Assembly: GCF_009429125.1 (NCBI RefSeq)
Contig: NZ_CP045529.1
Span: 682,001-746,000, forward strand
Source of the DNA: Luteimicrobium xylanilyticum
GTDB taxonomy: Bacteria; Actinomycetota; Actinomycetes; Actinomycetales; Cellulomonadaceae
Reading direction: 5' to 3'
DNA: 64,000 nt
The position numbers were made by a program, and so were the translations under genes. Under the pieces are notes generated by a model. That model saw nothing but the letters and a program-made list of their open reading frames with translations, was not told where the DNA came from and searched no databases. Of this stretch, positions 4,761 to 33,305 are shown piece after piece. How positions within the stretch are numbered: the first letter of the stretch is position 1; the number at the start of each line of letters is the position of its first letter.

Positions 4761-4812
4761 GAGATCTCGCGCGGGACCTGGACGCGTCCGACCGGGATGG
4801 GAGGATGGGCGC

Positions 4813-5328: not shown

Positions 5329-6863
5329 GCGACGGCCTGCCCGTGCCTGCGCCGGGCGGCGCGACCGCGCCGTCGTCCCTCGCCTGGCAGCGGGTCCACC
5401 CCGTGACGCCGCTCGTGAAGGGCTGGCTCGTCCTCGTCGTCGTGGTCCTCGGGCTCCTGCGCTCGACGGCGGAGCAGGGCGACGGCGACGGTGCCCGGTT
5501 CGCCCTGCACCACCTCGCGTGGGTGCTCCTCGGGATCGCGGCGATCGTCGTGGTCGCGGGCACCTACTCGTGGCTCGCGTGGCGGGTGACGGCGTACGCG
5601 ATCGACCCGGACGCGGTGCACATGCGGTCGGGGATCCTGTTCAAGCAGCACCGCAAGGCCCGGCTCGACCGGATCCAGGCGATCGAGGTGCGCCAGCCAC
5701 TCGCCGCGCGGATCTTCGGGCTCGCGGAGGTCAAGGTCGAGGTCGCGGGCGGCGACGGGTCGGGCGTGTCGATCGGCTACCTCACGGAGCGCACCGCGCA
5801 GGAGCTGCGCGCGGACCTGCTGGCGCGCGCGGCGGGGCTGGGGGCGCCGTCGTCGGGCGGGAAGCAGGCCGTCGCCGCGCCTGCCGACGGCACCGACGCG
5901 AAGCACGCACCGGACGCGGTGACGTCCGCGGCCGGGCCCGGTCCCGCCCCGACGCTCCACGCCACCGAGGCCCCCGAGCAGCCGCTGTTCGAGGTGCCGT
6001 CGGGTCGGCTCGTCGCGTCGACGTTCCTGACCGTCGAGGCGTGGGTGCTGGTGCTCGTCGTCGCGGGCGCCGTCGTCGCGGCCGCGGCGGCCCGGACCCC
6101 GGCGGTCCTGTTCAGCTTCGTGCCGGTCCTGATCGGCCTCGGCTCCGCGTTGTTCGGCCGGTTCAACCGCTCGTTCGCGTTCCGCGCCGCGACGTCGCCC
6201 GACGGCATCCGGCTGCGCCACGGGCTCACCGAGACGCGTGCGCAGACGATCCCGCCGGGCCGGGTGCAGGCCGTCGAGCTGGTGCAGCCGTTCCTGTGGC
6301 GACGGTTCGGCTGGTGGCGCGTGCACGTCAACGTCGCCGGCTACGGTCGCGAGGCGAACGCGAAGGGCCCGACGACGGTGCTGCTCCCCGTGGGCTCGCG
6401 CGCCGAGGCGACGACGGCGCTGTGGCTGGTCCTGCCGGACCTCGGCACGGCGGACCCGCTCGCGCTGCTCGGCGAGGCGCTCGACGGGAGCGGGCCGAGC
6501 GACGCGTTCACGGCCGCCCCGCGGCGGTCGCGCTGGCTCGACCCGGTGGGGTGGCGCCGCAACGGGTACGCGGTGACCGCGCGGGCCGTCCTCGCCCGCA
6601 GCGGCCGGGTGCGGCGTCGGCTCGTCGTGGTGCCGCACGAGCGGACGCAGTCGCTCGGGCTCGAGCAGGGACCGCTGCAGCGCCGGCTCGGGCTGGCGTC
6701 GTTCGTCCTGCACTCGACGCCCGGGTCCGTGCACCCGGAGGTGCCGCACCTCGACGCCCGGGACGCCCGGGTGCTGCTCGACGAGCAGTCCGTCCGGGCA
6801 CGCGAGGCGCGGTCCCAGGACCTCAGCGAGCGGTGGCTCCAGCCGCCGGGGGCGCGCGCATGA
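5325..6863 (+). CDS. Large PH domain-containing membrane protein (YdbT-like)
   Basis: 512 residues with repeated units of paired membrane helices plus bacterial PH domains. The first unit has KARLDRIQAIEVRQPLAAR, the second RVQAVELVQPFLWRR, and the third, without a clear helix pair, VVPHERTQSLGLEQGPLQRR near the C-terminus. This triple-PH layout is that of the YdbT/DUF304 family, the partner of the smaller YdbS-like protein encoded just upstream. A 40-residue Ala/Asp-rich linker (about residues 175-220) separates units 1 and 2. Function is unknown; a membrane or envelope role is inference. It is coupled at both ends (GTGA upstream, ATGA downstream). Confidence 0.85.
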   Translation: MSDGLPVPAPGGATAPSSLAWQRVHPVTPLVKGWLVLVVVVLGLLRSTAEQGDGDGARFALHHLAWVLLGIAAIVVVAGTYSWLAWRVTAYAIDPDAVHMRSGILFKQHRKARLDRIQAIEVRQPLAARIFGLAEVKVEVAGGDGSGVSIGYLTERTAQELRADLLARAAGLGAPSSGGKQAVAAPADGTDAKHAPDAVTSAAGPGPAPTLHATEAPEQPLFEVPSGRLVASTFLTVEAWVLVLVVAGAVVAAAAARTPAVLFSFVPVLIGLGSALFGRFNRSFAFRAATSPDGIRLRHGLTETRAQTIPPGRVQAVELVQPFLWRRFGWWRVHVNVAGYGREANAKGPTTVLLPVGSRAEATTALWLVLPDLGTADPLALLGEALDGSGPSDAFTAAPRRSRWLDPVGWRRNGYAVTARAVLARSGRVRRRLVVVPHERTQSLGLEQGPLQRRLGLASFVLHSTPGSVHPEVPHLDARDARVLLDEQSVRAREARSQDLSERWLQPPGARA

Positions 6864-7891
6864 CGGCGGCCGGCGGGCCGGTGCGGCTGGGCGTGGGCGT
6901 CGTCGGGGCCGGCCGCGTGGGCGCGGTCCTCGGCAGCGCGCTGCGGTCGGTCGGGCACGCGGTCGTGGGCGCGAGCGGCGTCTCGGAGGCCAGCCGCGAG
7001 CGCATCGACGCGATGCTCCCCGGGGTCCCCCTGCTCGAGGTCCCCGAGGTCGTCCGGCGCGCCGAGCTGGTCCTCCTCACCGTGCCCGACGACGAGCTCG
7101 CGCCCCTGGTCCGCGGCCTCGCCGACGTGGGGGCGTGGCAGCCGGGCCAGCTCGTCGTGCACACGGCGGGCAGCCAGGGCGTGCGCGTCCTCGACCCCGC
7201 GCGGGCCGCCGGCGCGATCCCCCTCGCGATCCACCCGGCGATGACGTTCACCGGAACGTCGCTGGACCTGTCGCGGCTCGAGGGCACGACCTTCGCCGTC
7301 ACGGCCGCGGCGCCCGTCCTTCCCATCGCGCAGGCGCTCGTGGTCGAGCTCGGCGGGGAGCCCGCCGTCGTCGCCGAGGAGGCCCGCCCGCTGTACCACG
7401 CGGCCCTCGCGCACGGCTCCAACCACCTCGTGGTGCTCGTCGCGCAGGCCGCGCAGGCGCTCGCGGCCGCCGGGATCGAGCGGCCCGGCCGGGCGCTCGG
7501 CCCGCTGCTGGGCGCCGCGCTCGACGGCGCGCTGCGCTACGCGGACGTCGATCGCGTGACGGAGACCCGGGCCGACGGCGGGACGGACGCATCCGTCGCG
7601 GCCCCGCTCGGCCTCGGCGCACCCGGCGCCGCCGCGATCGGGGCCCTCACCGGCCCGGTGTCGCGCGGCGACGTCGGGACGGTGCGCGCGCACCTCGAGG
7701 TCCTCGGTGCCGAGGCGGCCGATGCCCCGGACCTGCCGCCCGCATACCGTGCGCTCGCCCGCGGCGCGACCGTCCGCGCCCTCGCCGCGGGCCGCATCGG
7801 TGAGCGGCAGGCGGCGGAGCTGCTCGACGCGCTCGCCGAGCCGGCCCCGCCCGGCGCACCACCCGCCCCCGGTCCGGAGAGTGACGCATGA
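6860..7891 (+). CDS. Rossmann-like / DUF2520 domain protein
   Basis: 343 residues. The N-terminus has a dinucleotide-binding fold with [16 protein letters not shown], and the C-terminal half matches the DUF2520 layout, as in the NADP-dependent reductase-like proteins encoded next to panC in actinobacteria. The segment [14 protein letters not shown] is characteristic of the family. The substrate is not known; proximity to panC suggests ketopantoate or related chemistry, but that is only inference. Start ATG at 6860 overlaps the previous stop, and the 3' end overlaps panC (ATGA). Confidence 0.88.
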
Positions 7892-19192: not shown

Positions 19193-20449
19193 GTGAACTT
19201 CCTCGACGGCGGCTGGACGGCGCTCGCGGCGGGCCTCGTCGGCCTGCTCGTCGGCGTCTCCGCCGTGCTCGCGTTCCGGGTGAGCGAGCGACAGCGTTCG
19301 CGACCGGCGGGCCGCGCGTCGGGCGGGACCGAGTCCGCCTCGTCGAGCCCGGGTCTCGACGAGGGCCTGGTCCGGGTGCTGGCCGTGCTCCGCTCGGCCG
19401 CGGTCGTGCTCGACGACGAGGACCGGGTCGTGCGGGCCAGCCCGCCCGCGTACGCCCTGGGCGTGGTCCGGTCGTCGGAGGTCGCGCACGCGGCGATCCG
19501 CGACCTCGTGGCGGCGGTCCGCCGGGACGGCGTGATCCGCGACGAGGAGCTCGAGCTGCCGCGCGGTCCCGTCGGCCGGGGGACCGTGGTGCTGCAGGTG
19601 CGGGTCGCCCAGGTGACGCCGCACCTCCTGCTCGTGCTCGCGGAGGACCGCACGGAGGCACGCCGGACCGAGGCGATCCGCCGCGACTTCGTCGTCAACG
19701 TGTCGCACGAGCTCAAGACCCCGGTCGGCGCGCTCGCGCTGCTCGCCGAGACGGTGCAGGACGCCGCCGACGACCCGGAGGCGGTGCGCAGGTTCGCGGG
19801 CCGCATCGTGACCGAGTCCGAACGGCTGTCCGCGCTCGTGCACGAGATCATCGAGCTCTCCCGCCTGCAGGCGGCGAGCGCGGCCCAGCAGGTCACGGTC
19901 GTGCCGGCCCGCGCCGTCGTCGACGAGGCCGCGGCGCGCGCCCGGACGACGGCGCAGGCCAAGGGGATCCGGATCGCCGTCGGCGGCGACCTCGACGCCC
20001 GCCTCTACGGCGACCACGCCCTGCTCGTGACGGCGGTGCGCAACCTCCTCGACAACGCGGTCGCCTACTCGGGCGAGCACGCCCAGGTGTCCGTCGGCGT
20101 CCGGCAGGAGGGCGACCTCGTCGAGATCGCCGTCGTCGACGAGGGCATCGGCATCGCCCCCGAGGACCAGCAGCGGGTGTTCGAGCGCTTCTTCCGTGTC
20201 GACCCCGCCCGCTCGCGGGCGACCGGCGGCACCGGGCTCGGCCTCAGCATCGTCAAGCACGTCGCGGCCGACCACGGCGGCGAGGTGACCGTCTGGTCCG
20301 AGCCGGGGCACGGCGCGACGTTCACGTTGCGCATCCCTGCCGCGCCCGACGACGTCCCGCGCGTCGCCGGTGACGACCCGGACGACGTCAGCACCGGTCT
20401 TGACGAGCCCGACCGACCGACCGACCGAACCAAGGAGGTGGATGCGTGA
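19193..20449 (+). CDS. senX3: Sensor histidine kinase SenX3
   Basis: 418-residue membrane kinase that responds to phosphate status and phosphorylates RegX3. It has one N-terminal membrane helix (residues about 8-28), a PAS-like sensing region, the dimerisation/H-box NVSHELKTPVGAL (phospho-acceptor His near residue 173), and a C-terminal ATPase with N-box LLDNAVAYS, G1 DEGIGIAPEDQ and G2 GGTGLGLSIVKH. The C-terminal 40 residues are acidic and variable. It overlaps regX3 by GTGA. The single-helix, PAS-containing form matches mycobacterial SenX3 rather than PhoR. Confidence 0.93.
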   Translation: MNFLDGGWTALAAGLVGLLVGVSAVLAFRVSERQRSRPAGRASGGTESASSSPGLDEGLVRVLAVLRSAAVVLDDEDRVVRASPPAYALGVVRSSEVAHAAIRDLVAAVRRDGVIRDEELELPRGPVGRGTVVLQVRVAQVTPHLLLVLAEDRTEARRTEAIRRDFVVNVSHELKTPVGALALLAETVQDAADDPEAVRRFAGRIVTESERLSALVHEIIELSRLQAASAAQQVTVVPARAVVDEAAARARTTAQAKGIRIAVGGDLDARLYGDHALLVTAVRNLLDNAVAYSGEHAQVSVGVRQEGDLVEIAVVDEGIGIAPEDQQRVFERFFRVDPARSRATGGTGLGLSIVKHVAADHGGEVTVWSEPGHGATFTLRIPAAPDDVPRVAGDDPDDVSTGLDEPDRPTDRTKEVDA

Positions 20450-21180
20450 CCCGCATCCTCGTGGTGGAGGACGAGGAGTCCTACCGCGACCCGCTCACCT
20501 ACCAGCTCGAGCGCGAGGGCTTCGACGTGGCGGCCGCCGCGACGGGGCCCGAGGCGCTCACGGCGTACGACGCGCTCGAGTCGCAGGGCGGCGTCGACCT
20601 CGTGCTCCTCGACCTCATGCTGCCCGGCCTCGACGGGACGGAGGTGTGCCGCGAGCTGCGGCGCCGTGGCGACGTGCCGGTCATCATGCTGACCGCCAAG
20701 GACACCGAGATCGACAAGGTCGTCGGCCTGGAGCTCGGCGCCGACGACTACGTCACCAAGCCCTACTCGTTCCGCGAGCTGCTGGCGCGCATGCGGGCCG
20801 TGCTGCGTCGTCGTGCCTCCTCCCAACCCGCCGCTGGTGGGGGTGCCGCGGACGCCGACGAGATCGACGACGACGTCCTCGAGGTCGGTCCGGTCCGCAT
20901 GGACGTCGACCGGCACACCGTCACGGTGGGCGGCGAGCCCGTGTCGTTCCCGCTCAAGGAGTTCGAGCTGCTCGAGCTGCTGCTGCGCAACGCGGGCCGC
21001 GTCCTGACCCGCGGGCAGCTCATCGACCGGGTGTGGGGCTCCGACTACGTCGGCGACACCAAGACCCTCGACGTCCACGTCAAGCGCGTGCGGGCCAAGA
21101 TCGAGCCGGACCCGGGCAACCCGCAGCACCTGCTGACGGTCCGCGGGCTCGGGTACCGGTTCGTCGACGACGAGGACTGA
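20446..21180 (+). CDS. regX3: Response regulator RegX3 (OmpR family)
   Basis: 244-residue regulator of phosphate-starvation genes. The receiver domain (residues 1-120) has the acidic pair VEDEE, the phospho-acceptor Asp in VLLDLMLPGLDG, MLTAKD and the conserved lysine in VTKPYSFRELLARM. An OmpR-type winged helix follows (FPLKEFELLELLLRNAGRV; DTKTLDVHVKRVRAKIE; VRGLGYRF). The domains are separated by a Gly/Ala/Asp linker. AAGGAGG lies 10 bases before the start, and the start overlaps senX3. Confidence 0.95.
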   Translation: MTRILVVEDEESYRDPLTYQLEREGFDVAAAATGPEALTAYDALESQGGVDLVLLDLMLPGLDGTEVCRELRRRGDVPVIMLTAKDTEIDKVVGLELGADDYVTKPYSFRELLARMRAVLRRRASSQPAAGGGAADADEIDDDVLEVGPVRMDVDRHTVTVGGEPVSFPLKEFELLELLLRNAGRVLTRGQLIDRVWGSDYVGDTKTLDVHVKRVRAKIEPDPGNPQHLLTVRGLGYRFVDDED

Positions 21181-21506: not shown

Positions 21507-22487
21507 ATGAACACCAAGCGCACCCGCCGCCTGACGCTCGGGGCCGTCGCGGCGATCGCAGCACTGGGGCTCGCAGCGTGCAGCAGCGGTGGCTCGTCCG
21601 GCTCGGACGACACCAAGGGCTCCGGCGGGGACACCATCAAGGTCGGCTTCTCGCAGCTCGGCGCCGAGTCGGGCTGGCGCACTGCGAACACGGACTCCGT
21701 CAAGGCCGCCTTCACGAAGGACAAGGGCTTCGACCTGACGTTCGTCGACGCGCAGCAGAAGCAGGAGAACCAGATCAAGGCGATCCGCGACTTCATCGAC
21801 CAGGGCGTCGACGCGATCGCGTTCTCGCCGGTCGTCGAGACCGGATGGGACCAGGTGCTCCAGGAGGCCAAGGACGCCGAGATCCCCGTCGTCCTCGTCG
21901 ACCGCACCGTCAAGACGAGCGTCTCCGACCCGTACGCCACGTACATCGGCAACGACTTCGAGAAGGAGGGCGAGACCGCCGTCGCCTGGATCAAGAAGAA
22001 CGCCGCCGACGCGAAGATCTTCGAGCTCCAGGGCACGCTCGGCTCCTCGGCTCAGGTCGACCGTGAGAAGCCCGTCGACTCCGAGCTCGGCAGCCAGATC
22101 GTCGGCAAGGCGTCCGGCAACTTCACGCGCGCCGAGGGCAAGGCGGCCACCGAGGCGGCGCTGCAGGCCTACCCGAACATGACGATGATCGTGTCGCACA
22201 ACGACGACATGGCACTCGGCGCCATCGAGGCCATCGAGGCCGCCGGCAAGAAGCCCGGCACCGACATCAAGATCGTGTCGTTCGACGGCGTCCGGGACGG
22301 GCTGCAGGCGCTCCACGACAAGAAGATCAACTACATCGTCGAGTGCAACCCGGTCTACGGCGACCAGATCGCCGACCTCGTGAAGAAGGTCGTGAACGGC
22401 GAGGACGTGGCGAAGTCCACCATCGTCCCGGACGAGGCGTTCGACCAGACGATCACGCAGGAGACCATCGACGCGCGCAAGTACTGA
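21507..22487 (+). CDS. ytfQ: Sugar ABC transporter substrate-binding lipoprotein (YtfQ-like, furanose)
   Basis: 326-residue periplasmic-binding-protein-fold lipoprotein. Signal sequence and lipobox are visible (LGLAAC, lipid-carrying Cys near residue 26), followed by a Ser/Gly linker. The mature part closely follows E. coli YtfQ, the galactofuranose-binding protein: GFSQLGAESGWRTANT, QQKQENQIKAIRDFI, APVV-like SPVVETGWD, VLVDR and VSFDGVRDGLQAL. Such proteins bind the furanose form of sugars such as galactofuranose; arabinofuranose is an alternative given the neighbours. ATG 21507 follows AAGGAGGAG. It leads the ytfQ-ytfR-ytfT-yjfF operon. Confidence 0.9.
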   Translation: MNTKRTRRLTLGAVAAIAALGLAACSSGGSSGSDDTKGSGGDTIKVGFSQLGAESGWRTANTDSVKAAFTKDKGFDLTFVDAQQKQENQIKAIRDFIDQGVDAIAFSPVVETGWDQVLQEAKDAEIPVVLVDRTVKTSVSDPYATYIGNDFEKEGETAVAWIKKNAADAKIFELQGTLGSSAQVDREKPVDSELGSQIVGKASGNFTRAEGKAATEAALQAYPNMTMIVSHNDDMALGAIEAIEAAGKKPGTDIKIVSFDGVRDGLQALHDKKINYIVECNPVYGDQIADLVKKVVNGEDVAKSTIVPDEAFDQTITQETIDARKY

Positions 22488-22595: not shown

Positions 22596-24143
22596 ATGTC
22601 CACCACGTCCACGACGGCCAGCGAGCCAGTCGTCCGGATGACCGGGATCACCATCGAGTTCCCGGGTGTCAAGGCCCTCGACGGGGTCGATCTCACGCTC
22701 CGCCCCGGCGAGGTCCACGCCCTCATGGGCGAGAACGGCGCCGGCAAGTCGACGCTCATCAAGGCGCTCACCGGCGTCTACCGCATCGACGCCGGCACGA
22801 TCGCCGTGGCCGGCACGGCGCGGCGCTTCGACGGGCCCGCCGACGCCCAGGAGGCCGGCGTCAGCACGGTCTACCAGGAGGTCAACCTCGCCCCCAACCT
22901 CTCCGTCGCGGAGAACATCATGCTGGGGCACGAGGTCCGGCTCGGGCCGTTCGTGAACTGGCCCGCGACCCGCCGTGCCGCTCGGACCCACCTGGCCCGC
23001 CTCGGCCTCGACCTCGACCCCATGTCGATGCTCGGCACCCACTCCATCGCGATCCAGCAGCTCTGCGCCATCGCGCGGGCCATGGTCGTCGACGCGAAGG
23101 TCCTCATCCTCGACGAGCCGACGTCGAGCCTCGACAAGGCCGAGGTCGCACAGCTCTTCGACGTGATGCGGCAGCTCCGGGCCGACGGCGTCGCGATCCT
23201 CTTCGTGTCGCACTTCCTCGACCAGGTCTACGAGATCACCGACCGGCTGACGGTCCTGCGCAACGGGCGCCTCGTCGGCGAGTACCTCACCGCGGAACTG
23301 CCGCGACTCGAGCTCGTGTCCAAGATGGTCGGCCGTGCGAGCGAGGACCTCGCCGACATCGAGAAGGCGGCGCGGCGGACCACGACCCACGACCTCACGG
23401 GTCGGGAGCCGGTGCTGCGGGCCCTCGGCCTGGGCCGTGACGGCACCGTCGAGCCGTTCGACCTCGACCTCTACGAGGGCGAGATCGTCGGGGTCGCGGG
23501 CCTGCTCGGATCGGGCCGCACCGAGGTCGCGCGCCTGCTCTACGGCGCGGACCGGGCCGACAGCGGCACGCTCACTGTGCGGGGCGCGGGCGTCAGGGCG
23601 GCGAGCCCGCTCGGCTCGCTGCAGCGCGGCGTCGCCCTCGCCTCGGAGGACCGCAAGAAGGAAGGGATCATCGGGGACCTCACGGTCCGCGAGAACATCG
23701 CGCTCGCGATGCAGGCCGAGCGGGGCGCGTGGCGCAAGGTCCCGGCCAAGGAGCTCGACGCGACCGTCGCCCGGTACATCGAGGCGCTCGCCATCCACCC
23801 CGCGAACCCCGACGCCCTCATCAAGAACCTGTCGGGCGGCAACCAGCAGAAGGTGCTGCTCGCGCGGTGGCTCGCCACCGCGCCCCAGCTGCTGCTGCTC
23901 GACGAGCCGACCCGCGGCATCGACGTCGGCGCCAAGGCCGAGATCCAGCGGCTCGTCGCCGAGCTCGCGAGCGAGGGCATGAGCGTCGTGTTCATCTCCT
24001 CCGAGCTCGAGGAGGTCCTGCGGCTGTCGCACCGCGTCGTCGTCATGCGTGACCGCCAGAAGATCGGCGAGCTCACCAACGGGCCGGACGTCACGGCCTC
24101 CACCGTCCTCGAGACCATCGCAGCCAGCGGGAGCGCCTCATGA
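22596..24143 (+). CDS. ytfR: Sugar ABC transporter ATP-binding protein, two ATPase domains (YtfR-like)
   Basis: 515-residue cytosolic ATPase with tandem nucleotide-binding domains, as in RbsA, AraG and YtfR. Domain 1 has Walker A GENGAGKSTL, a non-standard signature region HSIAIQQLCAIARAM and Walker B ILILDEPTSSLD. Domain 2 has a degenerate Walker A LLGSGRTEVARLL, the intact signature LSGGNQQKVLLARWL and LLLLDEPTRGIDVGAK. This asymmetry is normal for the family. It drives import through YtfT and YjfF. ATG 22596 lies after the two hairpins, and the 3' end overlaps ytfT by ATGA. Confidence 0.95.
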   Translation: MSTTSTTASEPVVRMTGITIEFPGVKALDGVDLTLRPGEVHALMGENGAGKSTLIKALTGVYRIDAGTIAVAGTARRFDGPADAQEAGVSTVYQEVNLAPNLSVAENIMLGHEVRLGPFVNWPATRRAARTHLARLGLDLDPMSMLGTHSIAIQQLCAIARAMVVDAKVLILDEPTSSLDKAEVAQLFDVMRQLRADGVAILFVSHFLDQVYEITDRLTVLRNGRLVGEYLTAELPRLELVSKMVGRASEDLADIEKAARRTTTHDLTGREPVLRALGLGRDGTVEPFDLDLYEGEIVGVAGLLGSGRTEVARLLYGADRADSGTLTVRGAGVRAASPLGSLQRGVALASEDRKKEGIIGDLTVRENIALAMQAERGAWRKVPAKELDATVARYIEALAIHPANPDALIKNLSGGNQQKVLLARWLATAPQLLLLDEPTRGIDVGAKAEIQRLVAELASEGMSVVFISSELEEVLRLSHRVVVMRDRQKIGELTNGPDVTASTVLETIAASGSAS

Positions 24144-25234
24144 CCGGCACCGTCGCCACCGACCCGACCCCTTCGCCCGCGGACCGCGCCCGGCGGACCT
24201 TCTCCCGGCTCGCCGGACACACGCTGTTCTGGCCCGTCGTCGCGCTCGTCGTGCTGCTCCTCGCGTGCGGCGTCGTGAGCCCCGGCTTCCTCGACGTGAC
24301 CGTCCAGGACGGCCACCTGTTCGGTCAGGTCGTCGACATCCTGCGCCAGAGCGCCACGCCTCTGCTCCTCGCGATCGGCATGTGCCTCGTGATCGCGACG
24401 GGCGGCATCGACCTCTCGGTGGGGGCCGTCATGGCGATCTCGCTCGCGGTGTCCCTCACGTACATCGCGGAGTCGGGCAGCGGCACGACCGTGGGGACGG
24501 CGCTGACCGGGCTGGCCCTGGGGCTCGTGGTCGCGCTCGTCATCGGCGCGTTCAACGGCTTCCTGGTGACCGTGCTCGGGATCCAGCCGTTCATCGCGAC
24601 CCTCATCCTCATGATCGCGGGCCGCGGCATCGCGATGCTCATCACCAAGGGCCAGATCACCACGGTGACGAGCCCGCCGTTCAAGGCGATCGGCTCCGGC
24701 TACGTCCTCGGGATCCCGATGCCGGTGGTCATCGCCGCGGGCGTGTTCGCGCTCGTGGTCCTGCTGGTCCGCGGGACGGCTCTGGGCATGCTCCTCGAGT
24801 CGATCGGCATCAACCGCGAGGCCAGCCGGCTGGCGGGTGTGAAGTCCCGCAACATCACGTGGTTCGTCTACGCGCTGTGCGGGCTGCTCGCGGGGCTCGC
24901 GGGCATCGTCTACGGGGCGCCGACCATGGCCGCGGACGCCAACAACGTCGGCCTCATGAAGGAGCTCGACGCGATCATGGTCGTCGTCCTGGGCGGCACG
25001 AAGCTCGAGGGCGGGAAGTTCTCGCTCGCCGGCTGCGTCGTCGGTGCGCTCATCCTGTCGACCCTGGAGCGGGCCGTCGTGATCTTCCACCTGCCCACCC
25101 AGGTCACGCCGCTGTTCAAGGCGCTCATCCTCATCATCGTCTGCATCGCCGGCTCCGACCGCCTGCGTTCCCGGGCGGGGGCTGCGCGTCGCGCCCGCCG
25201 CACGCCCGCCGTCCCCGTGGAGGTGGCCGCATGA
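24140..25234 (+). CDS. ytfT: Sugar ABC transporter permease (YtfT-like)
   Basis: 364-residue inner-membrane permease of the BPD_transp_2 (ribose/furanose) type with about eight to ten helices. It has the family segment TGGIDLSVGAVMAISLAV, IQPFIATLILMIAGRG and the EAA-like loop GINREASRLAGVKSRNITWF followed by GGTKLEGGKFSLAG. It forms a heterodimer with YjfF, encoded next with an ATGA overlap. The C-terminus is a short Arg/Ala-rich cytosolic tail. Confidence 0.93.
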   Translation: MTGTVATDPTPSPADRARRTFSRLAGHTLFWPVVALVVLLLACGVVSPGFLDVTVQDGHLFGQVVDILRQSATPLLLAIGMCLVIATGGIDLSVGAVMAISLAVSLTYIAESGSGTTVGTALTGLALGLVVALVIGAFNGFLVTVLGIQPFIATLILMIAGRGIAMLITKGQITTVTSPPFKAIGSGYVLGIPMPVVIAAGVFALVVLLVRGTALGMLLESIGINREASRLAGVKSRNITWFVYALCGLLAGLAGIVYGAPTMAADANNVGLMKELDAIMVVVLGGTKLEGGKFSLAGCVVGALILSTLERAVVIFHLPTQVTPLFKALILIIVCIAGSDRLRSRAGAARRARRTPAVPVEVAA

Positions 25235-26388
25235 CCAGCACCCAGACCCCGGCCCCGGCGACGACGTCGCGTCGTACGAAGGGCGGAGCGCCGCGGCCCG
25301 GCAGCACGGGCGGCATAGCCGACGTCGCGCGCCGGTGGGGCCACCGGCTCGCCGACCGGCGCTTCCTGCCGGTCGCCGGCACGCTGCTCACTCTCGTGCT
25401 GATCCTCGTGATCGGCCAGGCGCGCTACTCGACGGACACCCGCAGCTTCGTCAACATGCGGCTGTTCTCGAACCTGCTCGTCGACAACTCGTACCTGCTC
25501 GTCCTGGCCGTCGGCATGACGTTCGTGATCCTCACGGGCGGCATCGACCTGTCGGTGGGCGCCGTCGTGGCGCTCGTCGGGCTGGTCGTCGCGAAGCTCC
25601 TCATCCTGGGGGTCCCGCTGCCGCTCGTGCTGCTCGCTGGCGTGCTCGTCGGGACGGTGTTCGGGCTCCTGATCGGGGTGCTCGTGCAGTACTTCTCGAT
25701 CCAACCGTTCATCGCGTCGCTCGCCGCGATGTTCCTCGCGCGCGGCCTGTGCAACGTCGTGAGCGTCGAGTCCCTCGCGATCGAGGACAAGGGCTTCACC
25801 GACCTCGCGTCGTGGCGGCTCAAGTTCGGGCACGGCCCGAGCATCTGGTACATCAACCTGTCGATGATCGTGGCGCTCGTCGTCGTCCTCGTGGCCGTCT
25901 ACCTGCTCCACTACACCCGCTTCGGCCGCACGGTCTACGGGCTGGGCGCGGGCGACGGCGGCCAGGCCGTGGGGCTGATGGGCCTGCGGGCGGCGCGCAC
26001 CAAGGTGTGGGTCTACGTCATCTCGGGGACGTGCGCCGGGATCGCGGGCATCCTGTTCGCCTTCTACACCCGGTCCGGCTTCAACCTCACGGGCATCGGC
26101 ATGGAGCTCGACGCGATCGCGTCGGTCGTGATCGGCGGGGCGATGCTCACCGGCGGCAGCGGCTTCGTCCTCGGGTCCGTGGCGGGCGTGCTCGTCTACG
26201 GCCTCATCCAGGTGCTCATCGCCCGCGAGGGCCTCGACTCCTGGTGGACCAAGGTCTTCATCGGCGCGGTGCTGCTGCTGTTCGTCCTGCTGCAGCGCGC
26301 ACTGAGCACCGGCCAGAAGCGCCGGCGCAAGAAGAACAAGGAGGAGAGCCCGGCACCGCCTCCGGCGGCAGCACCGGCCGTCTCCTGA
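25231..26388 (+). CDS. yjfF: Sugar ABC transporter permease (YjfF-like)
   Basis: 385-residue partner permease. About 45 low-complexity cytosolic residues precede the first helix (LPVAGTLLTLVLILVIG). It has LTGGIDLSVGAVVALVGLVV, IQPFIASLAAMFLARGL and GGAMLTGGSGFVLGSVAGV. It resembles E. coli YjfF in length and order. ATG 25231 overlaps ytfT. The Lys/Arg-rich C-terminus (KRRRKKNKEES) is cytosolic. A terminator hairpin follows. Confidence 0.92.
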   Translation: MTSTQTPAPATTSRRTKGGAPRPGSTGGIADVARRWGHRLADRRFLPVAGTLLTLVLILVIGQARYSTDTRSFVNMRLFSNLLVDNSYLLVLAVGMTFVILTGGIDLSVGAVVALVGLVVAKLLILGVPLPLVLLAGVLVGTVFGLLIGVLVQYFSIQPFIASLAAMFLARGLCNVVSVESLAIEDKGFTDLASWRLKFGHGPSIWYINLSMIVALVVVLVAVYLLHYTRFGRTVYGLGAGDGGQAVGLMGLRAARTKVWVYVISGTCAGIAGILFAFYTRSGFNLTGIGMELDAIASVVIGGAMLTGGSGFVLGSVAGVLVYGLIQVLIAREGLDSWWTKVFIGAVLLLFVLLQRALSTGQKRRRKKNKEESPAPPPAAAPAVS

Positions 26389-26406
26389 ACCACGCGCGAT
26401 GCGGCC

Positions 26407-26437
26407 TCCGGGGTCGCGTCGGTGGAACGACCCCGGA
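26407..26437 (+). terminator. Terminator after yjfF
   Basis: A perfect 10-bp stem (26407-26416 with 26428-26437) and an 11-base loop lies 19 bases after the yjfF stop, before the GH43 gene's own control region. Confidence 0.65.
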
Positions 26438-26498
26438 CGACGAGGACCCCGCAGGTCGGCGGCCCTGCGTCGGCACGTCGGGCGCGTTCCGGGCGCTC

Positions 26499-26510
26499 GA
26501 TATCGATATC
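26499..26510. promoter_or_regulatory. 12-bp palindrome upstream of the GH43 gene
   Basis: A perfect AT-containing palindrome, GATATCGATATC, lies 24 bases before the GH43 start in otherwise very GC-rich DNA. It may be an operator or part of a -10 region. It differs from the LacI-type sites in this window, and I did not find it elsewhere here. Confidence 0.5.
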
Positions 26511-26534
26511 CGAACACCGAAGGGAAGCTCGACG

Positions 26535-29500
26535 ATGAGACGTACCCGACCGACGCGCCTGCTGGTCAGCACGCTGACCTGTGGCGCCCTGCTGTGCGCG
26601 GGAGCTCTGCCCGCCCATGCCACGGAGGTGAGCGCCGTGCCTGCGGCGACCGCGACATCCCCCTCGACCTTCACCAACCCGGTGATGTTCGCGGACGTGC
26701 CCGACCCGGACGTCACGTTCGACGGCACCTACTACTACATGGTCTCCACGACCATGTACTACGCCCCCAGCGTGCCGATCATGCGCTCCACGGACCTCGT
26801 GCACTGGTCGATCGTCGGCTACACGGCACCGATCCTCGCCGACACCGACGAGCTGGCGCTCCGGAACGGCAAGAACGCGTACGCCAAGGGCACCTGGGCG
26901 GCAAGCATCCGGTACCACGACGGCACCTACTACGTGTCCGTCGGCAGTCTCACCACGGGCAAGACGTACATCTACTCGACGAAGAGCATCGAGAAGGGCC
27001 CGTGGACGACGTCCGTCCTCGACGGCTACGCGCACGACCAGTCGCTGCTCTTCGACGGCGACGACGTCTACCTCGTCTACGGCGGCGGTGCCCTCGACCT
27101 GCGCAAGCTCAAGCGCAACGGCGACGGGACGTTCGCGTGGGACGGCGCTGCGACGCGCATCGTCGACGACGCCAACGTGGGCCAGACGGCCGGCCTCAAC
27201 GCCGAGGGGTCGCACGCCTACACGATCGGCGACTACTACTACGTCTTCATGATCGAGTGGCCGACGAGCGGCATCCGCCAGGAGGTCGTCTGGCGCTCGA
27301 AGTCGCTGACCCCCCAGTCCGACGGCGGCGCCTGGGAGGGCAAGATCGTCTTCAGCCAGAAGGCGACGGTCGAGGGACAGTCCGGCGACGGCGCCGCACA
27401 GGGCGGTGTGGTCCAGGCGGCGGACGGCCAGTGGTACGCGATGCTGTTCCAGGACGAGGGCCCCGTCGGGCGCTCGCCCCAGCTCGCCAAGGTGACCTGG
27501 TCCGACGACGGCTGGCCGCAGTACCAGCTCGACGCGACCTCGGACGTCCCCGCCGCGGCCGCGTCGGCCGACCCGTCCACCGACCCGGCGGACACGGTGT
27601 CCGGCATCGTCTCGTCCGACGAGTTCGACAGCACCGCCACGAAGCCGGGCTACTGGAACAGCGCGAACGACGCCGACCTCGTCGCGTCGGCGGAGAACGC
27701 GAACAACGGCTCCAACCTCAAGCTCCAGTGGCAGTGGAACCACAACCCCGACAACCGGTACTGGTCGCTCACCGACCGTCCCGGCTACCTGCGGCTGACG
27801 ACCGGGAGCCTCGTGACGAGCATCCTCGACGCGCGCAACACGCTCACCCAGCGCACGTACGGGCCGACGAGCTCGGGGGCGATCAAGCTCGACGTGTCCC
27901 ACATGAAGGACGGTGACGTCGCCGGCATCTCCGCGTACCAGCAGAAGTACGGCTACGTCGCGGTCGAGATGAAGGACGGCGCGAAGAGCCTCGTCATGCG
28001 ACGCGCCGACAGAGACGGCAAGGTCGTCTCGAGCAGCACCCCCGTGCCGCTGAGCGCCGACACGGTCTACCTGCGCGCCGACGCGGACTACACGGGCTTC
28101 GCGAACAAGGCGTCGTTCGCCTGGTCGCTCGACGGCACCTCGTGGTCGAAGATCGGCGACCAGGTCGGTATGGAGTACAACCTGGCGCAGTTCGTCGGCT
28201 ACCGGTTCGCGATCTTCGACTACGCGACCACGACGACGGGCGGCTACGTGGACGTGGACTGGTTCCACGCGAGCGACGAGATCGGCCAGGGTCTGGCGAC
28301 GACGTGCACCGGCTCGTCGGACCTCGTCTCCAACGGCGGGTTCGAGAGCGGCTCGGTGTCGCCGTGGACCGGCAACGGCGCGGCGAAGCTCGCACTGACA
28401 ACGGACGACAAGGCGTCGGGCACGACCAGCGTCTCGGTCACCGGTCGCGAGAAGACCGGTGACGGTCCGCGCCAGGACGTCGCGCTCGAGGCCGGGGTGA
28501 CCTACCAGGTCTCCGCGAAGGTCAAGTACACGACGGGCCCCGCGACCAAGCAGTTCAACGTCACGGTCCAGGACGCCAACTACAAGGCGTACATCATGGC
28601 GTCGAAGACGGTGACGAAGGGCGAGTGGACCACGATCACGGGGTCCTACACGGTGCCGTCGTCAGGCCTCGACCTCGCCTCGGCGCACGTCTTCGTCGAG
28701 ACCGTGTGGACCGGTAGCCCGGACGCCACGAACGACCTGATGGACTTCCTCGTCGACGACGTGTCGGTGACGGGACCGGGAGCGTTCGACGGCGGCGTCC
28801 TGGCCAACGGCGGGTTCGAGGCCGGCTCGGTCGAGCCGTGGACCGGCAACGGGACGGCTCAGCTCGCGGTGACCGCGGCGGCTGCGGCGTCAGGGAGCTG
28901 CGGCGTCGACGTGACGGGACGCACCAAGACCGGTGACGGCCCGCTGCAGAGCGTCGCCGACAAGGTCACGGCGGGCGCGACGTACGACGTCGCCGCGAAG
29001 GTCAGGTACACGAGCGGGCCGGCGACCAAGCAGTTCAACGTCACGATCGAGGACAAGTCGAAGGCGTACATCATGGCGTCCACGACGGTCACGAAGGGGA
29101 AGTGGGCGACGATCAGCGGCTCGTACACGATCCCCGCGACCGGCTTCGACGTCGGGTCGGCGAAGGTGTTCGTCGAGACCGTGTGGACCGGTACGCCCGA
29201 CGCCACGGACGACCTCATGGACTTCTCGGTGGACGACGTCGCGATGACGGCCCGCGCGACCACCCCGACGCACCCCGCCGGCGACGCCGCACCCGCGAAG
29301 ACGGTCGGCAACGCCAACCCGCTGATGGACTACCAGTACGGGGCGGACCCGTGGGCCATGGTCTACGACGGTCGCGTCTACGAGTACATGACCGGCGACG
29401 GCTCGTACATCGACGCGGACGGCAACGTCGTCCAGGCGTACGAGACCGACGGCGACGGGAACGTCAAGGACAACTCGTACGGCAAGATCCAGACGATCAA

Positions 29501-31679
29501 CGTGATCTCGTCGTCCGACCTGGTGAACTGGCGCAACGAGGGGGCGATCAAGGTCGCCGGCTCGCACGGTGCGGCGACGTGGGCGTCGAACTCGTGGGCG
29601 CCCGCCGCGACGCACAAGACGATCGACGGGAAGGAGAAGTTCTTCCTGTACTTCGCCAACAGCGGCGGTGGCATCGGTGTACTGACGTCCGACTCGCCGA
29701 CGGGACCGTGGAAGGACCCGATCGGCAAGCCGATCGTCAGCTCCTCGACCCCGGGCACGTCCGGCGTCGTGTGGATGTTCGACCCGGCGGTCCTGGTGGA
29801 CGACGACGGCTCCGCCTACCTGTACTTCGGTGGCGGCGTCCCGAGCACGAACGGGACGTCGTCGGCGGACCAGACGGACCACCCGAAGTCGACGCGCGTC
29901 ATCAAGCTCGGTGACGACATGGTCTCGACCGTGGGGTCGGCGGAGACGATCGACGCGCCGGGGGTCTTCGAGGACTCGGGGATCAACAAGATCGGAGACA
30001 CGTACTACTACTCGTACTGCACCAACTTCTCCCACTCGGCGACGATCGACGGACACGAGGTCCCGACCGGGACCATCGCGTACATGACGTCGAAGAACCC
30101 GATGGGGCCGTTCACCTACCAGGGCACGATCCTCGCGAACCCGGGGAGCTTCTTCGGGGCGGGCGGCAACAACCACCACGCGATGTTCGAGTTCAAGGAC
30201 CAGTGGTACATCACGTACCACGCCCAGACGGTCCAGACGGCGCTCGTGAAGGGCGGCTCGCTCGACAAGGAGCACGGCTATCGGTCGACGCAGATCGACA
30301 CGGTGACCGTGGCCGACGACGGCTCGATCGAGCACGCGACGGGCACCTACCGGGGGGTCGACCAGGTCGGCTCGCTCGACCCGTTCCAGGAGATCTCGGC
30401 GGCGACCATCGCCTGGGACTCCGGGATCCAGGACGCCTACGACGCCGACTCGGGGATCCGCGTAGCGCCGAAGGGGTCCGACAGCTCGGGCGACCAGGTG
30501 CTGACGAACGTCGACGACGGCGAGTGGACGGCGCTCTCGGGCGTCGACTTCGGGGACGACGGCGCAGCGCGGGTCAGCGCCGATGTCCGGTCCCGGTCGG
30601 GAGGCACCGTGCAGGTGCGCCTGGACGCCGTCGACGGCGACGTCGTCGGGACGCTCGATGTCCCGGCCGGCGGCGACGACGCGGACTGGACCACGGTCTC
30701 CGTCCCGTTGACGAAGACCGTCACCGGGACGCACGACGTGTTCTTCACGTTCGCGGGTGAGGGCGACGACCACCTCTTCGACGTCGCGTCGTGGCGCTTC
30801 GTCCCGGCGGCCACCGCGCCGCAGATCACCGGGATCTCCGTCGCGGACGGCGACACGGTGTCGGGGAAGGTGACGTTCACCGTGGATCTGGGTGGTGAGG
30901 CGAAGGACGTGAAGTACACGTACGTCGAGCTGAACAAGGGCTCGGGGCAGACGTGGGTCACGGACAACACGAAGGCGGCGGGATCCACGAACGCGGGGCT
31001 GCACCCGACGCTCGTCGTCGACACCACGGCCCTGGCGAACGGCGCGTACGGTCTCAAGATCGACGCGGTGGGGACGAACGGGAAGACGACCGAGAAGAAG
31101 GTCTCCTTCACGATCAACAACCCCCCGCGGCTGTCGTTCGTGACCCCGAAGGACGGGGCCACGGTGTCCGGGAAGATGCCGGTGACCGTGGACTTGGGTG
31201 GTCAGGGCCTCAAGGCCTACAACCTGCGGGTGGACTCGGCGGGGCTGTCGTACGCGTACGAGCCGAAGGCGGGCGAGCAGACGTTCACGTGGGACTCGAC
31301 CACGGTCGCCGACGGGGTGCACACGCTGCTGGCGACGGCCACGGACACGGCCGGGAACAAGACCACGATCACCGAGAAGGTGATGGTCGCCAACACGCCC
31401 GCGTGGGACGCGAAGGCGGTCTACACGACGGGGGACCGGGTGTCCTTCGACGGGTCGACGTGGCTCGCGTCGTGGTGGACGCAGAACCAGAAGCCCGGTG
31501 ATGTGACCGGCCCTTGGCAGGAGATCGCGACGACGTCGGACGGCACCGCGGTGTGGACGGCGTCGCGGATCTTCAGCTCCGGTGACGTGGCGGTCTATCA
31601 GGGCGTGACCTACCGGGCGCAGTGGTGGACGCGGAACCAGAAGCCGGGCGACCCGAACGGCCCCTGGGAGAAGGCCTGA
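26535..31679 (+). CDS. Secreted two-headed GH43 glycosidase with CBM4/9-like, CBM6-like, Ig-like and CBM5/12 modules
   Basis: A 1714-residue secreted enzyme. Order: signal peptide (cut after about residue 29); GH43 module 1 (about 46-330; catalytic base D57 in VPDPDV, acid E224 in NAEGSHAY) with a beta-sandwich (about 360-580); two similar CBM4/9-like repeats (about 595-750 and 754-910, both with NGGFE and WTGNG); GH43 module 2 (about 925-1285; base D938 in GADPWAM, acid Glu in FEDSGINKI); a CBM6-like region (about 1288-1426); two Ig-like modules (about 1430-1620); and two CBM5/12-like repeats (NQKPGD) at the end. Probable xylosidase and arabinofuranosidase acting on arabinoxylan or arabinan. 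ATG 26535 follows GAAGGGAAG. Specificities of the two heads are not readable from sequence. Confidence 0.9.
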   Translation: MRRTRPTRLLVSTLTCGALLCAGALPAHATEVSAVPAATATSPSTFTNPVMFADVPDPDVTFDGTYYYMVSTTMYYAPSVPIMRSTDLVHWSIVGYTAPILADTDELALRNGKNAYAKGTWAASIRYHDGTYYVSVGSLTTGKTYIYSTKSIEKGPWTTSVLDGYAHDQSLLFDGDDVYLVYGGGALDLRKLKRNGDGTFAWDGAATRIVDDANVGQTAGLNAEGSHAYTIGDYYYVFMIEWPTSGIRQEVVWRSKSLTPQSDGGAWEGKIVFSQKATVEGQSGDGAAQGGVVQAADGQWYAMLFQDEGPVGRSPQLAKVTWSDDGWPQYQLDATSDVPAAAASADPSTDPADTVSGIVSSDEFDSTATKPGYWNSANDADLVASAENANNGSNLKLQWQWNHNPDNRYWSLTDRPGYLRLTTGSLVTSILDARNTLTQRTYGPTSSGAIKLDVSHMKDGDVAGISAYQQKYGYVAVEMKDGAKSLVMRRADRDGKVVSSSTPVPLSADTVYLRADADYTGFANKASFAWSLDGTSWSKIGDQVGMEYNLAQFVGYRFAIFDYATTTTGGYVDVDWFHASDEIGQGLATTCTGSSDLVSNGGFESGSVSPWTGNGAAKLALTTDDKASGTTSVSVTGREKTGDGPRQDVALEAGVTYQVSAKVKYTTGPATKQFNVTVQDANYKAYIMASKTVTKGEWTTITGSYTVPSSGLDLASAHVFVETVWTGSPDATNDLMDFLVDDVSVTGPGAFDGGVLANGGFEAGSVEPWTGNGTAQLAVTAAAAASGSCGVDVTGRTKTGDGPLQSVADKVTAGATYDVAAKVRYTSGPATKQFNVTIEDKSKAYIMASTTVTKGKWATISGSYTIPATGFDVGSAKVFVETVWTGTPDATDDLMDFSVDDVAMTARATTPTHPAGDAAPAKTVGNANPLMDYQYGADPWAMVYDGRVYEYMTGDGSYIDADGNVVQAYETDGDGNVKDNSYGKIQTINVISSSDLVNWRNEGAIKVAGSHGAATWASNSWAPAATHKTIDGKEKFFLYFANSGGGIGVLTSDSPTGPWKDPIGKPIVSSSTPGTSGVVWMFDPAVLVDDDGSAYLYFGGGVPSTNGTSSADQTDHPKSTRVIKLGDDMVSTVGSAETIDAPGVFEDSGINKIGDTYYYSYCTNFSHSATIDGHEVPTGTIAYMTSKNPMGPFTYQGTILANPGSFFGAGGNNHHAMFEFKDQWYITYHAQTVQTALVKGGSLDKEHGYRSTQIDTVTVADDGSIEHATGTYRGVDQVGSLDPFQEISAATIAWDSGIQDAYDADSGIRVAPKGSDSSGDQVLTNVDDGEWTALSGVDFGDDGAARVSADVRSRSGGTVQVRLDAVDGDVVGTLDVPAGGDDADWTTVSVPLTKTVTGTHDVFFTFAGEGDDHLFDVASWRFVPAATAPQITGISVADGDTVSGKVTFTVDLGGEAKDVKYTYVELNKGSGQTWVTDNTKAAGSTNAGLHPTLVVDTTALANGAYGLKIDAVGTNGKTTEKKVSFTINNPPRLSFVTPKDGATVSGKMPVTVDLGGQGLKAYNLRVDSAGLSYAYEPKAGEQTFTWDSTTVADGVHTLLATATDTAGNKTTITEKVMVANTPAWDAKAVYTTGDRVSFDGSTWLASWWTQNQKPGDVTGPWQEIATTSDGTAVWTASRIFSSGDVAVYQGVTYRAQWWTRNQKPGDPNGPWEKA

Positions 31680-31697
31680 CGGACCGGTCGCACCACA

Positions 31698-31735
31698 GGC
31701 GGCGGCGTCACCCGGACTCGGGTGGCGCCGCCGCC
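31698..31735. terminator. Bidirectional terminator between GH43 and GH51 genes
   Basis: A 17-bp stem with one G-T pair (31698-31714 with 31719-31735) and a 4-base loop lies between the convergent stops at 31679 and 31770, so it can serve both genes. Confidence 0.8.
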
Positions 31736-31769
31736 GTGTCGGCGCGGGCGGGCGGCCCGGCGGCGTAGG

Positions 31770-33305
31770 TCAGGCGCGCGCGAGGCGTCCCTCGAACGCG
31801 GTCCAGGACTCGGGGGCGAGCCGGATCGTCGTCGAGCCGCCGCTCCCGGGCGTCACGGCGCGCGCGACGTCGACGGTGGACCAGCACTCGCGCTGGACCT
31901 TCGCGGCGTGCTCGGGTCCGGCGACGGCCGGCTCGCGGTCGGCGAGCATCTGTCGGCCCTGCTCGAGCGTGACGACGGCGCCGGCGTGGGCCACCTCGAC
32001 CTCGACGACCTCGTCGCCACGGTTGGTGAGGAAGACGGCGAGGGCTCCGTCGTCGTCGACGGTCGCGGCGGCCGTGACGAGCGGGACGTCCCCGTGCCGC
32101 GCGGTCGCGTACGACGGCGCCTCCACGCGGAGGTCGAGGGCCTCGCCGCGGGCGAGACGTGCCGTCGTCGCGAAGGGGTGGAAGGTGGGCTGGCGCCAGG
32201 CCTCGCCGCCGGGCTCGGTCATGATCGGCGCGATCACGTTGACGAGCTGGGCGAGGCAGGCGACGGGAACCCGGTCGGCGTGGTTGAGGAGCGTGACGAG
32301 CAGGTCGCCGACGACGACGGCGTCGAGCCCGGAGTAGACGTCCTCGATGATGCGGGGGGCGTCGCGCTGGATCGGGAGGTTCGACTCGCCGGGGAAGCGG
32401 GAGTCGAGGTACCAGACGTTCCACTCGTCGAAGGAGACGGTGATCTGCTTGTCGGAGCGGCGACGAGCCGCCACGGCGTCGGCGGACGCGACGACGCGCC
32501 GGATGAACCGGTCCATCCCGGTCCCGGACCCGAGGAAGCTGGCGCGGTCGCCGTCGTGCTCCTCGTAGTAGGCGTGCATGGAGATGTGGTCGACGAGGTC
32601 GTAGGTGTACGACAGGACGGTCTGCTCCCACTCGCCGAACGTCGGCATGTCCATGGCGGAGGAACCGCAGACCACGAGCGAGATCGCGGGGTCGACGAGC
32701 TTCATGGCCTTGCCGGCCTCGGCGGCGAGCTTGCCGTACTCGTGGGCGTCCTTGTGCCCGATCTGCCAGGGCCCGTCCATCTCGTTGCCGAGGCACCAGA
32801 GGCGGACGCCGTAGGGCTCGGTGCGGCCGTTCGCGATCCGCAGGTCGGCCCAGCGGGTGCCGGCCTCACCGTTGCAGTACTCGACGAGCGCGGCGGCGGC
32901 CTCGACGCCGCGGGTCCCGAGGTTGACGGCCATCATCGGCTCGACGCCCTCGCGCTCGGCCCACTGCAGGAACTCGTCGGTGCCGACGAGGTTGGGCTCG
33001 ACGGTCCGCCACGCGAGGTCGAGGAAGGGCTTGCGGTCCCGGGCGGGGCCGACGCCGTCCTCCCAGCGGTAGTTCGAGACGAAGTTGCCGCCCGGGTAGC
33101 GCAGTATCGTGACGCCGAGCTCGTGGGTGAGGTCGGCGACGTCGCGGCGGAAGCCGTGCTCGTCGGCGGTCGGGTGGCCGGGCTCGTAGATCCCGGTGTA
33201 GACCGCGCGGCCCAGGTGCTCGACGAACGAGCCGAACAGCCGCCGGTCGACGGTGCCGACACGGAAGTCGGGGTGCAGGGTCACACGGGCGTGGGGGTGC
33301 GTCAT
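31770..33305 (-). CDS. Alpha-L-arabinofuranosidase, GH51
   Basis: 511-residue intracellular enzyme (no signal peptide) that removes terminal arabinofuranose from imported arabino-oligosaccharides. It has the GH51 features FGSFVEHLGRAVYTGIYEPGH, LRYPGGNFVSNYRWEDGVGP, the acid/base E175 in CLGNEMDG and the nucleophile E294 in FDEWNVW, followed by the C-terminal beta-sandwich. ATG 33305 (complement) follows GAGGAC. A LacI-type operator lies at 33360-33373. It complements the secreted GH43 enzyme and the furanose importer. Confidence 0.95.
   Translation of the reverse strand: MTHPHARVTLHPDFRVGTVDRRLFGSFVEHLGRAVYTGIYEPGHPTADEHGFRRDVADLTHELGVTILRYPGGNFVSNYRWEDGVGPARDRKPFLDLAWRTVEPNLVGTDEFLQWAEREGVEPMMAVNLGTRGVEAAAALVEYCNGEAGTRWADLRIANGRTEPYGVRLWCLGNEMDGPWQIGHKDAHEYGKLAAEAGKAMKLVDPAISLVVCGSSAMDMPTFGEWEQTVLSYTYDLVDHISMHAYYEEHDGDRASFLGSGTGMDRFIRRVVASADAVAARRRSDKQITVSFDEWNVWYLDSRFPGESNLPIQRDAPRIIEDVYSGLDAVVVGDLLVTLLNHADRVPVACLAQLVNVIAPIMTEPGGEAWRQPTFHPFATTARLARGEALDLRVEAPSYATARHGDVPLVTAAATVDDDGALAVFLTNRGDEVVEVEVAHAGAVVTLEQGRQMLADREPAVAGPEHAAKVQRECWSTVDVARAVTPGSGGSTTIRLAPESWTAFEGRLARA

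Follow-up and report, generated by a model that had tools for sequence, protein, structure and literature searches.

The gene at 26535–31679 of the window, by which we mean the whole 64,000-nucleotide stretch of DNA analysed here, raises the question of what two GH43 catalytic heads do in a single secreted chain, and whether it matters that they are joined. We consider it very probable that the product is an arabinoxylan arabinofuranohydrolase that is secreted and anchored on xylan, and whose two heads, d-type then m-type, complement each other. In the mechanism that we propose, head 1 (GH43 and C2 sandwich, GH43_10-like, AXH-d type) would take one arabinose off a doubly substituted xylose, head 2 (GH43 and CBM6, GH43_16-like, AXH-m2,3 type) would strip the single arabinose that remains, the CBM4/9, CBM6 and CBM5/12 modules would keep the chain on the plant cell wall, and the freed arabinose would be imported via the ABC transporter encoded directly upstream. 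Both heads probably act in sequence on one xylose, and the targets proposed for the binding modules are likewise probable; cooperation on the same doubly arabinosylated xylose is predicted because it follows from the characterised relatives Axh43A and AxuA/AxuB. A sequence-only reading of this DNA had envisaged concerted removal of neighbouring arabinose and xylose decorations. The two different, intact GH43 heads and the idea of cooperative debranching are retained here, but both heads resemble arabinose-releasing arabinofuranohydrolases, and the xylose part of the proposal is not.

The frame is open for 1714 codons up to the stop at 31679. Read from stop to stop it extends 5′ of 26535, with a GTG at 25335, and that portion overlaps the permease gene. 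The ATG at 26535 is preceded by AAGGGA and begins a stretch that, judged by eye, is signal-peptide-like (MRRTRPTRLLVSTLTCGALLCAGALPAHA). A gene caller based on codon scores favoured 26637, but we retained 26535 because the later start would remove the signal peptide. Pfam places two GH43 modules (6e-62), GH43_C2 (2.8e-40), two CBM_4_9 (5.4e-47), CBM_6 (1.8e-23) and two CBM_5_12 (1.2e-12) above their curated cut-offs. The Ig-like matches, Big_13 at 22.1 bits (cut-off 27) and Big_7 at 21.0 bits (cut-off 24.1), both fall on the second unit and below cut-off; an 82% DNA repeat spaced by 306 nt (30845/31151) supports two units, such that Ig-like modules are suggested. The module list drawn up from the sequence alone was thus right in outline, although the accessory modules are of five kinds (C2, CBM4/9, CBM6, Ig-like and CBM5/12) rather than the four then counted.

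Features of the two-headed enzyme gene and its neighbours (window positions).
Feature	Position	Strand	Evidence
Sugar-binding protein of ABC importer (Peripla_BP_4)	21507–22487	+	Pfam
ABC ATPase, two ABC_tran stretches	22596–24143	+	Pfam
Two BPD_transp_2 permeases (24140–25234, 25231–26388)	24140–26388	+	Pfam
Whole gene, secreted two-headed GH43 enzyme, 1714 aa	26535–31679	+	Frame and Pfam
Putative signal peptide, residues 1–29, A-x-A end	26535–26621	+	By eye from sequence
Head 1, GH43 propeller, residues 46–328, GH43_10-like; D57, D168, E224, D307	26670–27518	+	Pfam, structure matches, alignment
GH43_C2 beta-sandwich (PF17851), residues 392–578	27708–28268	+	Pfam
CBM4/9 copy a, best solved match 4XUP	28317–28784	+	Pfam, structure-sequence match
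CBM4/9 copy b, 69.1% identical to copy a	28788–29258	+	Pfam, pairwise comparison
Head 2, GH43, residues 919–1278, BsAXH-m2,3-like, GH43_16-like; D938, D1083, E1146	29289–30368	+	Pfam, alignment
CBM6, residues 1302–1423; aligns jointly with head 2 to BsAXH-m2,3	30438–30803	+	Pfam
Suggested Ig-like unit 1, no Pfam match of its own, repeat of unit 2	30816–31121	+	DNA repeat
Suggested Ig-like unit 2, Big_7/Big_13 below cut-off	31125–31373	+	Pfam
CBM5/12 copy a	31401–31520	+	Pfam
CBM5/12 copy b, 46.5% identical to copy a	31530–31676	+	Pfam, pairwise comparison
Alpha-L-arabinofuranosidase C-terminal domain protein (PF06964)	31770–33305	-	Pfam

The best solved relatives of head 1 are 6MLY (437 bits, 38–41% identity) and HiAXHd3 (199 bits, 27–28%). 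Its AlphaFold model (pLDDT 85.0, pTM 0.87) matched 6MLY with a TM score of 0.84 and HiAXHd3 with 0.79/0.82 in Foldseek. Counting along the alignment puts D57, D168 and E224 on the catalytic triad of HiAXHd3, and D307 on its D291. Among 56 head-1 rows, D307 and D168 are Asp in all 56, D57 in 55 (one gap), and E224 is kept in 55 (one Asp). Position 226 (HiAXHd3 218), which is Ser in head 1, varies across the same rows (Ala 23, Cys 12, Ser 10, Thr 6, Asn 2 and three others once each). Head 1 therefore has both sequence features of the AXH-d3 type (GH43_10 / GH43_36a), the C2 sandwich and the side-pocket Asp. In the excerpted account of HiAXHd3, D291 is essential for acting on doubly substituted xylose, and one clade, of which the member assayed acts on single substitutions, has Trp in its place (PMC9693073). 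Head 1 is thus likely of AXH-d type and predicted to act on doubly arabinosylated xylose, its exact specificity being read from these relatives. We label it GH43_10-like because it is nearer to 6MLY than to HiAXHd3 (GH43_36) and because this subfamily is the one named for Axh43A and AxuB.

Head 2 and the CBM6 align end to end with BsAXH-m2,3 (3C7E, 511–514 bits). The model of this head (pLDDT 87.6, pTM 0.91) matched 3C7G/3C7E in Foldseek with TM scores of 0.87–0.88 by query and 0.92–0.93 by target, at 50% identity, and none of the 22 rows compared departs from the catalytic residues at columns 938, 1083 and 1146. Next come CtGH43 (5A8C, 194 bits), assigned to GH43_16 (PMC6556953), and CjAbf43A (3QEF, 58.7 bits), assigned to GH43_29 (PMC11264647). 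Head 2 is therefore likely GH43_16-like and of AXH-m2,3 type, again with its exact specificity predicted by homology. A GH43_29 label was considered and dropped on these scores; the excerpted reports also call AxuA and the second half of Axh43A GH43_16 (PMC11318964, PMC12718284). Head 2 could be narrower in action than assumed, since a GH43_16 enzyme of R. cellulolyticum is described, in the excerpted report, as very weak and inactive on the oligosaccharides tested there (PMC6556953). With conserved columns for the triad of the five-bladed GH43 propeller (Asp as base, Asp as pKa modulator, Glu as acid), Pfam scores above cut-off and GH43 structure matches in Foldseek for both heads, the earlier statement that each retains the expected catalytic Asp and a probable acid Glu is borne out.

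Whether joining the heads has a meaning of its own was approached through their relatives, a set of 88 loci comprising the best 80 of 587 places in a contig scan and eight loci of the own genome. Both heads lie in one frame in five of these loci: L001 (the window's own), L002 (a second enzyme of the same genome), L009 (Nakamurella silvestris), L022 and L024. A sixth fused frame, L109, comes from genome G143 (family f1). At nine loci (L023, L026, L030, L031, L048, L108, L110, L111 and L114) the two heads are encoded by adjacent, separate genes, an arrangement found in both Actinomycetota and Bacillota; behind the L022 fusion lies one more head-1 gene. The Nakamurella protein has the order of the window enzyme through CBM6, then two SLH stretches. 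In L022:9935-13981, L024:9941-14011 and L109:1606-7155 the CBM4/9 sits between the head-1 propeller and the C2 sandwich, as it does in the split genes of L108 and L110; the separate L108 frames (1503-4481 and 4497-7049) each have a signal-peptide-like start. The full architecture of the window enzyme was found in its own genome alone among 200 family and 246 class genomes (the own genome being counted in both); no more than two candidates were scored in each genome, so that absences are lower bounds. The search for the same architecture that the sequence-only reading had proposed thus found that the two-headed core is not unique, being present in six fused loci, the own one included, and in Axh43A as described in PMC12718284.

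The head-1 tree, built by a quick method and with several long branches, holds 56 of 97 full-coverage matches; it leaves out duplicates, two paralogues at 24–25%, most near-alike Bacteroidota rows and some others, and L031, whose frame runs into masked N, lies outside it. On this tree the fused state needs three changes, and three are also forced by the starred branches; these may be gains and losses. Placing the six fused rows in one group was rejected by 601 log-likelihood units (p-AU 4.3e-53), placing the window enzyme, L002 and L009 with L022 and L024 in one clade was rejected by 158 units (p-AU 7.8e-10), and uniting L022/L024 with the L108-L111/L114/L109 group cost 3.4 units (p-AU 0.414) and was not rejected, all for groups chosen after seeing the tree and with Axh43A outside the set. 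Common descent of the window-type fusion with L022/L024 was thus not borne out, and on these post hoc tests the Luteimicrobium fusion is separate from the Bacillota fusions tested. Because that joint clade was rejected, the two head kinds appear to have been fused in at least two separate lineages, possibly three. A count of three independent fusions was dropped, given that the three changes may include losses and that the last grouping was not rejected. In the head-2 tree (29 of 67 rows) the fused state needs six changes against a shuffled mean of 5.6, and is therefore not clustered.

These results bear on a stronger proposal, that the fusion is a selected hand-over machine in which head 2 takes over the singly substituted product of head 1 within the same bound chain, and that this coupling was strong enough to drive the at least two, possibly three, separate fusions: the Luteimicrobium/Nakamurella layout, and the layout with CBM4/9 inside head 1 (Paenibacillus, a Firmicutes MAG and genome G143). 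Repeated fusion makes a benefit of joining the activities testable, yet we regard the hand-over proposal as unlikely. Two results count against a two-step reading: the lack of clustering in the head-2 tree, and a same-genus head 2 without head 1 (described below). A quite plausible alternative, although not one that we favour, is that the specificities are as proposed and the fusion has no catalytic meaning, shuffling having placed both heads behind a common signal peptide and beside a common set of binding modules. It would account for the recurrence of the Ig-like C-terminal cassette on other proteins of the genome, and for the 41 of 56 head-1 rows labelled "alone", a label that, like "other", denotes no partner in the stretch fetched, some loci having only 1.5-kb flanks beyond which a partner may lie. 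In one fermentation test with C. saccharobutylicum, Axh43A without its GH43_16-CBM6 half equalled the full enzyme (17.8 versus 17.4% residual sugar; PMC12718284), so a second head may add little if the host supplies single-arabinose activity. Against this, the same kinds of head are joined in at least two lineages and stand side by side in Actinomycetota and Bacillota. This alternative is compatible with the two-head specificities and competes only with the coupling idea.

More doubtful is the view that head 2, or both heads, are beta-xylosidases or dual xylosidase/arabinofuranosidases, the chain removing arabinose and xylose alike. The GH43 family is polyspecific, release of xylose is described for two GH43_29 enzymes of R. 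cellulolyticum (PMC6556953), and many C2-bearing structural neighbours of head 1 are named beta-xylosidases. However, head 2 is half identical to BsAXH-m2,3 and far from the GH43_29 enzyme CjAbf43A (58.7 bits versus 511), the excerpted account of Axh43A gives it no pNP-xyloside activity (PMC6106730), and head 1 keeps the d3-marker Asp; we judge this view improbable. That both heads have overlapping AXH-m activity, which would make the chain redundant rather than two-step, is very improbable: position 226 is variable in the family, with Asn in two rows, and TpABF43_36b, a fungal relative, is active on single substitutions only, but the clade of that enzyme carries Trp at 291 and, for the most part, Asn at 218 (PMC9693073); at these positions head 1 shows Asp and Ser, like the d3 clade.

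We return to complementary d-type and m-type heads anchored on xylan. The best solved match of the CBM4/9 pair is 4XUP, an "Endo-1,4-beta-xylanase C" chain (aligned 594–907, 99.9 bits). We take the pair and the 4XUP modules to be CBM22, which would suggest xylan binding. The repeats had been called near-copies that showed recent internal duplication. At the protein level, the identity of copies a and b is 69.1% for CBM4/9, and that of the CBM5/12 copies is 46.5% over 43 residues, which does not fit near-copies. L002 and the Nakamurella protein have the tandem CBM4/9 pair as well, with copies that are 54.0% and 64.4% identical, respectively, and copy a of the window enzyme is as near to copy b of L002 (68.9%) as to its own copy b, with 66.2% to copy b of L009. 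Because the pair is common to relatives and identity across proteins is about that within them, a recent private duplication is not supported; by these comparisons the pair is older than the split of these proteins, or has been homogenised.

The second two-headed enzyme of this genome (G000:C1:752207-757078, minus strand; L002:1498-6411) is 74% identical to the window enzyme. Its gene, 38 kb further downstream and so outside the window, runs in the opposite orientation and is close to a different sugar ABC importer; the modules of the two enzymes agree through the Ig-like units, but the second lacks the CBM5/12 pair. The genome has seven GH43 stretches over cut-off, four of them in the two two-headed proteins. 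Within the genus, genome G035 and the L. album record give the same match, 82% over about 1427–1711. Genome G010 has the frame with head 2 and CBM6 but no head 1 (L113:4485-6566, minus strand), preceded by a truncated CBM4/9 (profile 3–71 of 136), and its head 2 is sister to that of the window enzyme in the head-2 tree (95*). Head 1 was likely lost from this chain, perhaps by a deletion that left the CBM4/9 remnant. The gene upstream of the G010 frame encodes another large chain, with two GH43 and two Laminin_G_3 stretches. Elsewhere in the window, a large protein (59663–62740) combines Laminin_G_3, ricin-lectin and Big_7 without a catalytic Pfam match; its C-terminal cassette and the end of the two-headed enzyme are 68% alike.

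The importer genes end 146 bp before the enzyme ATG and are preceded by a two-component system (19193–21180); the importer probably takes up the freed arabinose, the sugar being our inference. Downstream of the enzyme is the arabinofuranosidase-domain gene, whose product we take to be GH51-type, and past it a LacI-type regulator (34543). The importer and these two genes, like the recurring pairing of the heads, speak in favour of the proposed role. The leader of the enzyme gene holds a perfect 12-bp palindrome, GATATCGATATC, at 26499–26510, for which 0.02 occurrences are expected in the window (at most one mismatch). We considered it as an operator, but the genome has a single occurrence of its 14-base extension, CGATATCGATATCC (at most one mismatch), so that it defines no regulon. 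A search of 26300–26640 for sigma-70-like promoters and terminator-like sites found none, and 31600–31800 has one minus-strand terminator-like site, within the end of the enzyme gene.

Doubly arabinosylated xylose is described as a main obstacle in cereal arabinoxylan breakdown, with which few enzymes cope (PMC12718284, PMC9693073). Among enzymes of known structure, HiAXHd3 from Humicola insolens (PDB 3ZXJ) and BeGH43/FAE (6MLY) share with head 1 the GH43 and C2 fold, the triad and the side-pocket Asp, but have one GH43 head each where the Luteimicrobium chain has two, 6MLY carrying a ferulic acid esterase in place of the second. BeGH43/FAE releases arabinose from insoluble wheat arabinoxylan and, in the excerpted report, does not cleave arabino- or xylo-oligosaccharides (PMC7815789). 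BsAXH-m2,3 from Bacillus subtilis (PDB 3C7E, 3C7G) has the fold and catalytic residues of head 2 and its GH43 and CBM6 over the whole length, but its solved chains are single-headed. Other chains with two GH43 modules include CBM13-Doc-GH43-GH43 (PMC4081043), a tandem GH43_2 protein (PMC7761036), a table entry in PMC10992016, and BlArafD as cited in PMC11318964.

Complementary activities are also known from separate proteins. RcAbf43Ad2,3 of R. cellulolyticum (GH43_10-X19-CBM6-Doc) resembles head 1 as read here in being a GH43_10 enzyme, with an X19 module, that acts on double decorations, and has a synergy factor of 1.53 with a single-decoration enzyme; its partner is a separate dockerin-bearing GH62 enzyme rather than a fused GH43 head (PMC6556953). 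In Bifidobacterium longum, AxuB (GH43_10) is active, among the oligosaccharides tested, on A2,3XX and AxuA (GH43_16) on A2XX and A3X, and both are needed for growth on cereal arabinoxylan. This is the subfamily pair, and the double/single complementarity, proposed for the Luteimicrobium heads, but in two wall-anchored proteins from neighbouring genes instead of one chain (PMC11318964).

The closest counterpart is Axh43A from Thermoclostridium stercorarium (AGC67716.1; PMC6106730, PMC12718284), with which the window enzyme shares the signal peptide, GH43_10 with GH43_C2, and GH43_16 with CBM6, the module names given in PMC12718284. Axh43A has about 1221 residues and, in the excerpted descriptions by which we liken it, no CBM4/9, Ig-like or CBM5/12 modules. 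With two GH43 modules and a CBM6 it is typed AXHB-md 2,3, shows 41.5 U/mg on arabinoxylan and strips arabinose from oligosaccharides with single and with double substitutions (PMC6106730); its first half alone still cuts the doubly substituted ones (PMC12718284). From its host and size we would guess that it groups with the fusions of L022 and L024, not with that of the window. The two-headed principle is thus already described, and the Luteimicrobium enzyme, with its AXH-md2,3 layout of N-terminal d-type GH43 and C2 and C-terminal m-type GH43 and CBM6 in one chain, is a more heavily decorated example of the Axh43A kind from a soil-type actinobacterium. Mildly new are the 74% paralogue 38 kb away and the separate joining of these two head kinds in at least two lineages. 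With two natural d-type/m-type fusions that carry several binding modules, this genome offers a useful comparison to Axh43A, one that bears on whether joining two activities helps.
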